Assembly: GCF_000744655.1 (NCBI RefSeq)
Contig: NZ_JQMJ01000004.1
Coordinates: 1,798,001-1,862,000 of the forward strand
Source: Streptacidiphilus rugosus AM-16
Lineage (GTDB): Bacteria; Actinomycetota; Actinomycetes; Streptomycetales; Streptomycetaceae
Length of the DNA: 64,000 nucleotides
Direction: 5' to 3'
A model generated the notes under the pieces. It did no database searches and was not told where the DNA came from. It saw nothing but the letters and a program-made list of their open reading frames with translations. Position numbers and translations under genes: made by a program. This document shows, piece by piece, positions 2,757-6,525 of this stretch. How positions within the stretch are numbered: position 1 is the first letter of the stretch; every line of letters begins with the position of its first letter.

Positions 2757-3710
2757 ATGAGGGCTGTCCAGATCACCGAGTTCGGCGGACCCGAGGTCCT
2801 GCGCCTGGCGGACGTACCGGAACCGGCCCCCCAGCCGGGCCAGCTGCTGATCGACGTCACCGGCGCGGGCGTCAACTACGCGGACACCCACGCGGTCGAG
2901 GACTCCTACCTCTCCCGCAGCACGCTGCCGATGATCCCCGGCGGCGAGGTCGTCGGCACCGCGCAGGACGGCCGCCGCGTCGTCGCCCTGACCGCGACCG
3001 GCGGCTACGCCGAACGCGCCTGCGCCTGGGAGGCCATGGCGACGGAGGTCCCCGAGGAGGTCTCGGACGCGGCCGCGCTGGCGCTGGTGGTCCAGGGCCT
3101 CACGGCCTGGAACCTGCTGCGCACCTCGGCGCGGATCGCGCCGGGCGAGTCCGTCGTCGTCCACGCCGCCGCCGGCGGCACGGGCTCGCTGGCCGTCCAG
3201 CTCGCCCGCCGCTTCGGCGCGGGCCGGGTCCTCGCCACGGCCTCGACGAAGGAGAAGCGCGACCTCGCCCTGTCCCTGGGCGCGGACGAGGCCGTCGACG
3301 GCGACCCCGAGGGCCTCAAGGAGCGGCTGATCGAGGCGAACGGCGGCAAGAAGGTCGACATCGTCCTGGAGATGACCGGCGGCCCCGTCTTCGACGCCTC
3401 CCTCGCGGCCCTCGCCCCGTTCGGCCGCCTGGTCACCTACGGCCTGGCCTCCCGCCAGGACCCGACCCCGATCCAGGCCACCGCCCTGATGGGCCGCTCC
3501 CAGGCCGTCATCGGCTTCTGGCTGATGCACGCCCTCGGCCGCCCCGAGCTGCACGCACAGCCCATGGCCGAGCTGCTCGACCTGGTCGCCAAGGGCGAGC
3601 TCGTGCCGCAGGTCGGGGGCACATATCCCCTGGCGGACGCGCGAGTTGTGCACGAGGCGCTGCGCTCGCGGGCGACGACTGGGAAGCTGGTGCTCGACCC
3701 CCGGAGGTGA
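2757..3710 (+). CDS. Zinc-free MDR family (quinone oxidoreductase-like) dehydrogenase
   Basis: A 317-residue medium-chain dehydrogenase/reductase of the quinone oxidoreductase branch, predicted to use NAD(P)H in the cytoplasm. The GroES-like domain (about 1-110) starts MRAVQITEFGGPEVL and has GVNYADTH where zinc enzymes carry the catalytic Cys/His. The Rossmann domain carries AAAGGTG at residues 137-143, the NADPH-binding AAxGGVG variant. No structural-zinc cysteine cluster is present. GCAAGGAG precedes the ATG. Two palindromes lie just upstream. The bL37 gene follows after 3 bp, with its ribosome-binding site inside this gene's 3' end. The physiological substrate cannot be read from sequence. 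Confidence 0.9.
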   Translation: MRAVQITEFGGPEVLRLADVPEPAPQPGQLLIDVTGAGVNYADTHAVEDSYLSRSTLPMIPGGEVVGTAQDGRRVVALTATGGYAERACAWEAMATEVPEEVSDAAALALVVQGLTAWNLLRTSARIAPGESVVVHAAAGGTGSLAVQLARRFGAGRVLATASTKEKRDLALSLGADEAVDGDPEGLKERLIEANGGKKVDIVLEMTGGPVFDASLAALAPFGRLVTYGLASRQDPTPIQATALMGRSQAVIGFWLMHALGRPELHAQPMAELLDLVAKGELVPQVGGTYPLADARVVHEALRSRATTGKLVLDPRR

Positions 3711-3713
3711 ACC

Positions 3714-3788
3714 GTGTCCAAACGCACCCGTAAGCGGGCGTGGCGCAGACGCAAGGCGAACCACGGCAAGCGACCCAACTGCAGATAG
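3714..3788 (+). CDS. 50S ribosomal protein bL37 (24 residues)
   Basis: A GTG-initiated 24-codon frame with a strong GGAGG (3703-3707) that overlaps the preceding stop. The product is almost entirely Lys/Arg (MSKRTRKRAWRRRK) followed by ANHGKRPN. The basic stretch plus ANHGKRPN ending is the signature of bL37, the very small actinobacterial protein seen bound to 23S rRNA in mycobacterial ribosome structures. It is too short for usual gene-length cutoffs and easily missed. It would be translated from the oxidoreductase transcript and is closed by a strong terminator 8 bp later. The match to bL37 is from memory of the family. Confidence 0.82.
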   Translation: MSKRTRKRAWRRRKANHGKRPNCR

Positions 3789-3796
3789 GCGCGACG

Positions 3797-3820
3797 AGGG
3801 AGGCCCGGCAGGGCCTCCCT
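3797..3820. terminator. Intrinsic terminator after bL37
   Basis: A perfect 10 bp stem, AGGGAGGCCC/GGGCCTCCCT, with a GGCA tetraloop, followed by TTCTGCTT. It ends the oxidoreductase-bL37 transcript 8 bp after the bL37 stop and isolates it from the TetR gene. Confidence 0.88.
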
Positions 3821-3862
3821 TTCTGCTTGCCGCCCTTGCGCTTGTTACTCAACCGACGTACT

Positions 3863-3882
3863 TTTTACTCATGCCAGTAAAA
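3863..3882. promoter_or_regulatory. Palindromic operator over the TetR start codon
   Basis: TTTTACT-N6-AGTAAAA is a perfect 7+7 bp inverted repeat whose spacer contains the ATG at 3871. A related TTACTC half-site occurs at 3845-3850. A repressor bound here would block both promoter clearance and the start of its own message, so autoregulation is likely. Confidence 0.6.
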
Positions 3883-4485
3883 GGCGAATCCCGATCCGTC
3901 ACGGCGAACGCCCGCCGCGCGCAGATCCTGACCGCGACGATCGAGACGATCGCCGAGCTCGGCTACGGCCAGGCCTCCTTCGCGCGGATCGCGGAGCGGG
4001 CGGGGCTCAGCAGCACGCGGCTGATCTCGTACCACTTCGCCGGCAAGGACGAGCTGATCTCCGCCCTGATCGCCGACGTCTACGCGGACATGGGCCGCTT
4101 CATGGCCGAACGAATGGCGGACTGCGCCGACGCACGGGACGCACTTGCCACCTACATCCGCTCGGTCGTCGCCTACATCGCCGCGCACCGCGCCCAGATG
4201 CAGGCCCTGATGTCGGTCTTCCTCGGCTACCGCAGCGAGTCCGGCGCGAGCAGCTACGACGCGGACTCGGAGCGCGAGGTGCTGGGCCACCTCCAGGGGA
4301 TCCTGCGCGCGGGACAGGAGAGCGGCGCGTTCCGGCCGTTCGACACCTTCGTGATGGCGGCCACGGTCCAGCGCTCGATCGACGGCCTGCCGTTCCTGCT
4401 GCGCACCGCACCCGACCTCGATCTCGAGGCCTACGCCGAGGAGTTGGCCGAACTCTTCGACCGCGCGACCAGGAGCGCGCCATGA
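3871..4485 (+). CDS. TetR family transcriptional regulator
   Basis: A 204-residue TetR repressor. The N-terminal HTH spans about residues 10-57 (RRAQILTATIETIAELGYG through LISYHFAGKDELISAL); the helical ligand and dimer domain follows. I start at ATG 3871 because the HTH then sits at the usual distance from the N-terminus and a palindrome straddles this codon. No Shine-Dalgarno sequence is visible before it, so the message may be leaderless. The stop overlaps the next gene (ATGA), so it is translationally coupled to the membrane protein at 4482, which may be part of the regulated response. The ligand is unknown. Confidence 0.93.
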   Translation: MPVKGESRSVTANARRAQILTATIETIAELGYGQASFARIAERAGLSSTRLISYHFAGKDELISALIADVYADMGRFMAERMADCADARDALATYIRSVVAYIAAHRAQMQALMSVFLGYRSESGASSYDADSEREVLGHLQGILRAGQESGAFRPFDTFVMAATVQRSIDGLPFLLRTAPDLDLEAYAEELAELFDRATRSAP

Positions 4486-5144
4486 CCACGGCCCGAAGCC
4501 TGCGGGTCCTGCGTGCGGTGGCCGGGTTCGCCGTCCCGACCGCGCTCTTCTACGGCCTGCGCGCGATGGGCGTCGGCATCTACCTCACCCTGGTCATCGC
4601 CTCCGTCCTGCCGGCCCTGCTCGGCCTGTGGACCCTGCTGCGCTCGCGCAAGGTCGACGGACTGGCCCTCTACATGCTGGTCCTGATGCTGCTCAGCACC
4701 GGCGTCTCGCTGATCGGCGGCAGCCCACGCTTCCTGCTGAGCCGCGAGGCCTGGCTGACGGGGGTGACCGGCGCCTGGTTCATCGGCTCCGTCTGGACCG
4801 CCCGGCCCCTCGCCTTCCACTACACCCGCCCGATGCTGGAACACCGCAAGGGCCGCGCCGCGATCCCCGGCGACTGGGACGACCTGTGGGAACGCCTGCC
4901 CGGCTTCCGCCGCGTCTGGCGCGTCGGCAGCGTGCTCTGGGGCGTCGCCCTGCTGGCGGACTCGGCCGTCCGCGTGGTGATGGCCTACACCCTCCCGGTC
5001 GACGAGGTCCCGGCGCTCGGCACGGCGCTGTACCTGGCGACGTCAGTGGTGCTGATCGTGATCACCAACGTCTACTACTTCGCCTCCGGCCTCTACGACC
5101 GGCGCTCGTCGCTGTACGCCCCACCGGCCGCGGAGAATTCCTGA
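4482..5144 (+). CDS. VC0807-like integral membrane protein
   Basis: A 220-residue membrane protein resembling the VC0807 family of unknown function. About six hydrophobic segments are visible, at roughly 8-28, 30-50, 60-78, 88-108, 145-165 and 180-205. The order VPTALFYGLRAMGVGIYLTL (14-33), then a cytoplasmic RSRKVDG turn, is typical of the family. The ATG overlaps the stop of the TetR gene (ATGA), so the two are coupled, and the regulator may respond to a compound this protein handles. No transporter signature or catalytic motif was recognised. The next gene begins 216 bp downstream in a region without a clear terminator. Confidence 0.8.
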   Translation: MTTARSLRVLRAVAGFAVPTALFYGLRAMGVGIYLTLVIASVLPALLGLWTLLRSRKVDGLALYMLVLMLLSTGVSLIGGSPRFLLSREAWLTGVTGAWFIGSVWTARPLAFHYTRPMLEHRKGRAAIPGDWDDLWERLPGFRRVWRVGSVLWGVALLADSAVRVVMAYTLPVDEVPALGTALYLATSVVLIVITNVYYFASGLYDRRSSLYAPPAAENS

Positions 5145-5360
5145 AATCCGTGCCCTCGCGGCTTCCTGAAACCGGGTCACCACGGGTCCTGGCCGACCCG
5201 CCCACGGCTTCCCTGGCGGAACGTGGCGCCCGGGGTCGACCACCGCGCGGCGGCCGCTCACCGGCCCGCTCACCAGCTCGACATACCCGCTCTGACCTGG
5301 TGCTTCTCTGATTCTCCCCTAGGCTGACGGTTTCTGCCGGACGCTGTCGGAGGGGACATC

Positions 5361-6467
5361 ATGAGCGACGAGACCGTCAGGTTCGACGCCAGTCAGATCA
5401 AGGTGCTGGAGTGGCCGGAGGCCGTCCGCAGGCGGCCCGGGATGTATATCGGCTCGACCGGGGAGCGGGGACTGCACCAGCTGGTCTTCGAGGTCGCCGA
5501 CCAAGCGGTGCACGAGGCCCTGACCGGTCGGGCCGGCCGTGTCGACATCCGCCTCACGGCCGACGGCGGCGTTCGTGTCGCTGACAACGGCCCGGGCATC
5601 CCGATCGAGGACGACGATCGCCCCGGCCTCACATCGCTGCTGACCCGCCTGTGCCTCCGAGCCACCCACAGGGGCCGTCACGAGGTCCATCTCTCCCGCT
5701 TCGGCCTCGGCCCGTCCGTCGCCAACGCTCTTTCCTCCCGTCTCACGGCCGAGGTGCACCTCGACGGGACCCGTTGGACCGGGGAGTACGCGCGTGGGGT
5801 CGCCGTCAGCCCGCTCACCGCGGTCGGGCCGACGGCCGACAGCGGGACGGTCATCACGTTCCGGCCGGATCCGGAGATCTTCCACACGGTGGAGTTCTCG
5901 TTCGACACGCTCGCCGACCGCTTCAGGGAACTGGCTTTCCTCAATCGACCCCTGGATGTTTCCCTGACCGGCGAGCGGCGGTCGTTGCGGCTCCGGTTCC
6001 CGGGCGGGGCAAGGGACTTCGTGGCCTTTCTCGACGAGCCCGCCCGGACAGCGGTCCACCACTCGGACGTCATCGGCTTCGAACGCGACGACCCGCAGAT
6101 GGAGGGGACGATGGAGATCGCCTTCCGCTGGTCCCACTCCCCCGAGGAGCGGATCCGAGGCTTCGCCAACAGCCTGGCGACTCGCGGCGGGACCCACCTG
6201 GAGGGATTCCGCGACGGGGTCGTCGCCGCAGTGACCTCCCACGCACGCGCGCACGGGCGGTTCGCGGCCGCCGAGCGGGTCACCGCGGGTCTGACCGCCG
6301 TGGTGTCGGTGAAGCTGGACCAGATCGAGCTCGAGGGCGCCTGCCGGGACGTCCTGGGCAACGGGGCCGTACGGACCTCCGTGCGGCGAGCCGTGGAGGA
6401 GGAGCTCAGCCGGTGGCTGGCGGACCATCCGGAGCAGGCCAGGGCTCTCGTCGAGCGGGCGCAATAA
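5361..6467 (+). CDS. Orphan GyrB-like protein, ATPase-transducer part only
   Basis: The 368 residues align with the first ~390 residues of GyrB (GHKL ATPase plus transducer) and then stop. The TOPRIM and C-terminal regions are absent and there is no gyrA nearby. GyrB landmarks remain: RRRPGMYIGS (23-32), GLHQLVFEVAD, DNGPGIP (75-81) and TRGGTHLEGF. Several ATPase residues differ: the Mg-binding Asn of EVVDNAIDE is Gln48, the G2 lid GGLHGVG is reduced to SRFGLG (112-117), and the QTK-loop lysine has no counterpart (EGACRD, 325-330). The catalytic Glu44 and Asp75 are kept. It is likely a non-topoisomerase paralogue with weak or no ATP hydrolysis; function unknown. Its third-position T content is higher than in neighbours. 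Confidence 0.82.
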   Translation: MSDETVRFDASQIKVLEWPEAVRRRPGMYIGSTGERGLHQLVFEVADQAVHEALTGRAGRVDIRLTADGGVRVADNGPGIPIEDDDRPGLTSLLTRLCLRATHRGRHEVHLSRFGLGPSVANALSSRLTAEVHLDGTRWTGEYARGVAVSPLTAVGPTADSGTVITFRPDPEIFHTVEFSFDTLADRFRELAFLNRPLDVSLTGERRSLRLRFPGGARDFVAFLDEPARTAVHHSDVIGFERDDPQMEGTMEIAFRWSHSPEERIRGFANSLATRGGTHLEGFRDGVVAAVTSHARAHGRFAAAERVTAGLTAVVSVKLDQIELEGACRDVLGNGAVRTSVRRAVEEELSRWLADHPEQARALVERAQ

Positions 6468-6512
6468 GCGGCGCCTCGCGAAGGACCTCCCCAGGTTTCG
6501 CGAGACGCCGCT
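6467..6512. terminator. Bidirectional terminator between convergent genes
   Basis: Two 16 bp arms (6467-6482 and 6497-6512) pair with a single mismatch around a 14 nt loop. The hairpin starts at the last base of the GyrB-like stop and ends 13 bp before the malate synthase stop, so it can serve both transcripts. Confidence 0.8.
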
Positions 6513-6525
6513 GATCAGGACCGGG

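Follow-up and report, generated by a model that had tools for sequence, protein, structure and literature searches.

A short GyrB paralogue of Streptomycetaceae without TOPRIM, with a degenerate ATP site and a conserved leader of its own

The nearest described parallels to the short GyrB-like protein reported here are a truncated GyrB deposited as PDB 3cwv and the plant paralogue AtGYRB3. Degenerate ATP sites and a partner role have also been reported for the TopoVIB-like meiotic proteins, which are topoisomerase GHKL subunits as well but, unlike short GyrB, are eukaryotic, SPO11-associated and of the type IIB lineage. Entry 3cwv ('DNA gyrase, B subunit, truncated') is likewise a stand-alone GyrB ATPase-transducer protein, of 369 residues, but it is remote from ours, scoring 97 bits against 236 for mycobacterial GyrB in a comparison by score and architecture alone, and no paper describing it was found in the open-licence literature searched. 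Arabidopsis AtGYRB3 is also a GyrB paralogue; it reportedly has no ATPase motifs and does not bind GyrA (PMC8084294), but it is a plant protein carrying a SANT domain and probably arose separately. In gyrase itself, closure of the N-gate is driven by ATP-dependent dimerisation of the GyrB ATPase domains (PMC7897471, PMC8084294). The side chains of Asn46, Lys103, Gln335 and Lys337 bind the ATP triphosphate in E. coli GyrB (PMC4388272), and Tyr5 and Ile10 have been implicated in GyrB dimerisation (PMC4585971). In the same open-licence literature we found neither a described bacterial GyrB paralogue devoid of ATPase motifs nor a paper on a family of short pseudo-GyrB proteins.

The window analysed here is a stretch of 64,000 nucleotides from Streptacidiphilus rugosus AM-16. 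An earlier note on this DNA had described one of its genes as encoding a GyrB-like protein that ends before TOPRIM, and domain matches and searches with the genome's own GyrB uphold that description:

5361..6467, + strand: short GyrB-like gene encoding a putative pseudo-ATPase (GHKL and transducer, without TOPRIM), product P0001, 368 aa (ORF, domain matches, fold prediction)
5349..5355, + strand: GGAGGGG, Shine-Dalgarno sequence of the short gyrB (leader sequence comparison)

The ORF starts with ATG behind this Shine-Dalgarno sequence. Pfam places HATPase_c at residues 35-171 and the DNA_gyraseB transducer at 216-367, and the NCBIfam gyrB models cover P0001 just to about model position 380 of 640. 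P0001 is colinear with the 43-kDa N-terminal ATPase/transducer region of GyrB over residues 8-367, with 45% identity to the genome's own GyrB; it differs from GyrB in lacking TOPRIM and the GyrA-binding half. A split gene, with its TOPRIM half frameshifted or displaced, had been named in advance as the finding that would speak against this architecture. We reject it, since tblastn with the N-trimmed own GyrB matched the window only at query residues 12-395 and the next gene is a convergent malate synthase. No TOPRIM or C-terminal GyrA-interacting region is present in P0001, whose ORF stops after the transducer as do those of the intact family members described below. The locus is thus almost certainly a GyrB ATPase/transducer paralogue without TOPRIM.

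The note had also called the protein partnerless. That holds for the window, in which no gyrA or parC gene adjoins the short gyrB, but the host carries a complete gyrase that could serve as partner. Intact gyrB and adjoining gyrA are on contig 3, and contig 4 carries parE and parC. P0001 has a gyrase-B-like fold, yet it is no gyrase B subunit: TOPRIM, the catalytic ligands and an adjacent GyrA gene are all absent. An AlphaFold2 model, computed from an alignment of P0001 and related loci rather than the larger family alignment, reached pLDDT 87.4 and pTM 0.85, with lid residues 101-111 below 50. The closest solved folds are mycobacterial GyrB ATPase regions, with a TM score of 0.87-0.90 to that of M. 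tuberculosis (3zm7).

Alignment of P0001 to its own GyrB, given here in E. coli numbering, locates the altered and the retained parts of the ATP site:

5502..5504, + strand: Gln48 codon at the position of the Mg-binding Asn46 (in the family, Arg in 50 of 71 and Asn in 0; alignment)
5655..5711, + strand: degenerate, shortened ATP lid, residues 99-117 (alignment and pLDDT)
6339..6347, + strand: remnant QTK loop A327-C328-R329, Gln335 and Lys337 replaced (alignment)
5382..5480, + strand: residues 8-40, comprising the N-terminal dimerisation strap and the RPGMYIG segment, strongly kept across the family (alignment)

The exchange of the Mg-coordinating Asn for Gln48 and the shortening of the glycine-rich lid, both claimed in the earlier note, are seen directly: Gly101, Lys103 and Gly114 have become Arg, Thr and Ser, and the final G-x-G is present. 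The QTK-loop Lys, said to be absent, is indeed lost, but by replacement with Arg (R329) and not by deletion. DNGPGIP and GGTH, named as fold-defining motifs that remain, are intact, as are the catalytic Glu (Glu42) and the adenine-contacting Asp (Asp73). In the strap, Ile10 is kept as Ile13, Tyr5 has become Phe8, and Gly15 has become Trp. Realignment, the other route by which the pseudo-ATPase reading had been expected to fail, did not restore the motifs.

The same losses recur throughout a family of about 70 members, which bears out the designation pseudo-ATPase as far as sequence can. No member has Gln at the Gln335 position (Ala or Ser in 63) or Lys at the Lys337 position (Arg in 59), and Lys103 is kept by a single member, L123. 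New identities are frequent at other positions as well, Asn74 being Asp in 62 members and Asp49 being Asn in 47. The adenine-side and catalytic residues are largely kept (Glu42 in 59 members, Asp73 in 65/71, Gly77 in 64/71, Arg136 in 58/71), the position of Arg76 is mostly Pro, and the strap retains Tyr5 in 67/70 and Ile10 in 65/70. When retention was scored at columns universal in the GyrB/ParE set compared here, ATP motifs were kept at 42% and other columns at 81% (p 3e-6), with the N-terminal strap at 83%; these values indicate that the ATP machinery has been specifically lost while fold and strap were kept. The family is therefore predicted to lack ATPase activity. Close pairs have a dN/dS of about 0.3-0.6, an NG86 estimate that the GC content makes rough, and the family is under purifying selection.

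A profile built from P0001 and two genus relatives and run on 395 Streptomycetaceae genomes found short GyrB-like genes at at least 71 places in 66 of them, all scoring above every full-length GyrB; four candidates were scored per genome, which makes the count a minimum. Intact members range from 368 to 404 aa (median 387), with a mean pairwise identity of 58%, and share one end point just after the transducer. Their public-record labels are 'DNA gyrase subunit B' or 'ATP-binding protein', which hide a coherent pseudoenzyme family. Further members lie on linear Streptomyces and Kitasatospora plasmids. Above the cut-off, a class-wide search outside Streptomycetaceae returned only full-length ORFs (648 aa or more), and phage matches to short GyrB had less than 40% identity among the matches listed. 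Of the 25 members on large contigs, 15 are no more than 1 Mb from a contig end, where 5.7 would be expected (p 1e-4), a count that includes the window itself (from an assembly of four contigs) and treats contigs as chromosomes.

In the tree, 41 short sequences including P0001 form one clade with support of 100/100, and this main clade groups, again at 100/100, with L124 and with a pair formed by L123 and the plasmid member H12, all of them short. The whole short group attaches to the Streptomycetaceae GyrB with moderate support (83/92). L123 and H12 retain parts of the lid and are already without Asn46 and Gln335. The tree is consistent with a single duplication in which a gyrB copy in a Streptomycetaceae ancestor would have lost TOPRIM and then the residues that bind triphosphate and Mg. 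L123 (8110-9261) and L158 (7956-9146), one chromosomal and one on a plasmid, represent a separate, early-branching short GyrB subgroup with more of the ATP lid kept and without the leader described next. Broken or decayed copies (L005, L118, L122 and a remnant in genome G101, at about 2150 of L248 on the reverse strand, with its leader intact) show turnover.

Upstream of the gene lies a second conserved element:

5235..5360, + strand: conserved promoter/leader, 126 bp, found before nearly all members at a fixed distance (upstream alignment, model search)
5293..5300, + strand: TGACCTGG, leader core, at -68, with 6/8 bases invariant in 44 aligned members (alignment)
5320..5325, + strand: TAGGCT, putative -10-like box of the leader (alignment)

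A TGACCTG-like sequence near -68, a TAGGCT-like sequence near -41 and a GGAGGGG-like sequence before the start occur together in 62 of 69 upstream regions. Across the 44 aligned sequences the mean column identity is 71%, and TGA-CTG and TA...T do not vary. TGACC lies farther from the -10-like box than a -35 element usually does, so an activator site is possible. We rejected a structured RNA leader, as Rfam gave no match and RNAalifold predicted no pair, and treat the element as acting at the DNA level. In its own genome the leader model finds the window site at E 8e-23, a value to be read knowing that this site is one of the model's own rows, and the next best site at E 0.002. Strong sites in 20 other genomes all stand before short gyrB genes, one of these a decayed short gyrB start, and the idea of a wider regulon was dropped accordingly, the extra strong site being that remnant. 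The leader is essentially unique to short gyrB genes. It was present in 5/5 plasmid members of the main clade examined and is missing from the early-branching H12. Judged from these sequences, gene and promoter move as a single unit on chromosome arms and linear plasmids, and the promoter offers a direct handle on when the short gyrB is used. In genome G154, a weaker leader copy (36 bits, E 3e-8; L249, position 1549, + strand) precedes a gene for a class I SAM methyltransferase.

Across the family, a median of 320 bp separates the short gyrB from the gene before it, which suggests that it is usually transcribed alone. No neighbouring gene family is conserved in the ~16-kb contexts of the roughly 70 members, which makes a general host protein the probable partner. 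PADLOC anti-phage defence models gave no match, and an operon or defence-island partner was rejected on both grounds.

What such a protein might do was left wide by the earlier note, which listed decoy, regulator, resistance factor and sensor. The retained strap and the lost triphosphate ligands fit a trans-acting pseudo-partner best, and we tentatively favour a reading in which this conserved and mobile GyrB paralogue, catalytically dead by sequence, forms dimers independently of ATP and modulates gyrase in trans. Without TOPRIM it cannot join GyrA as a topoisomerase; the N-gate closes by dimerisation of GyrB ATPase domains, and a dead copy of the same domain has an obvious place to act there. 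With the GyrB43 fold and the strap, which crosses between subunits at the N-gate, both kept, the short protein may dimerise without ATP hydrolysis, pairing with the ATPase domains of host GyrB or with itself. It could cap the N-gate, or its Tyr5/Ile10 strap could complete the ATP site of GyrB. The more specific proposal, that dead paralogues present in about one-sixth of Streptomycetaceae pair with host GyrB at the N-gate in ATP-independent or mixed dimers, tune or protect gyrase, and spread by plasmids and chromosome-arm exchange, is one we regard as possible with considerable doubt. If true, it would describe a bacterial topoisomerase pseudoenzyme spread by these routes, and action on gyrase would add a new layer of supercoiling control or of self-protection in makers of gyrase-targeting antibiotics. 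Several observations count against action in trans. Retention of the strap does not exceed that of the remaining universal columns outside the ATP motifs (p 0.95), so folding alone could account for it; P0001 carries Phe and Trp at the Tyr5 and Gly15 positions, respectively; a core partner would be expected to show a lower dN/dS; and several of the copies are broken.

A GHKL-transducer fold put to new use, as a homodimer that binds a ligand or DNA and makes no contact with gyrase, is a reading that we consider unlikely but deserving of weight. The family's fast divergence, its dedicated promoter and the exchanges particular to it throughout the fold (N74D and D49N beside N46R, for example) speak for such a scaffold, whereas the retained strap does not, and a gain of DNA binding finds no support in charge, the transducer carrying -6.5 in the family against -6.6 in GyrB. 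Retention of Asp73, Gly77 and Arg136 with the triphosphate ligands gone would also suit a sponge that takes up natural inhibitors of the GyrB ATP site (aminocoumarins, kibdelomycin-like or cyclothialidine-like compounds) on its adenine side and so shields gyrase, and an accessory, mobile distribution among antibiotic-rich hosts agrees with it. Asn46 of GyrB contacts the novobiocin sugar, however, and no member keeps this residue, while most have Pro in place of Arg76, which weakens an inhibitor decoy; the absence of a conserved neighbour likewise means no shared biosynthetic cluster, and we judge the sponge improbable. Least probable in our estimation is that the gene is a non-functional or weakly selected gyrB duplicate hitchhiking on plasmids and chromosome ends. 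Patchy presence and the decayed copies are what a relic would leave, but against it stand the constant length, a dN/dS far under 1, positions fixed for new residues and near-exact promoter spacing across members with ~58% protein identity.

At the S. rugosus locus, synteny with relatives delimits the inserted segment:

3711..6525, no strand assigned: lineage-specific stretch (TetR, membrane protein, short GyrB) between ADH and malate synthase (synteny with relatives)

The genus order of uricase, amidohydrolase, ADH, malate synthase and IclR, a purine-degradation region, is kept in 10/10 relatives examined, and the TetR, membrane protein and short gyrB genes are missing from the syntenic site in all ten, which identifies the stretch as a lineage-specific addition. 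The two genes that share it with the short gyrB encode a TetR regulator and a membrane protein that matches no Pfam model, and occupy 3646-5144 of the window. In the closest relative, ADH and malate synthase are separated by a gap of 127 bp.
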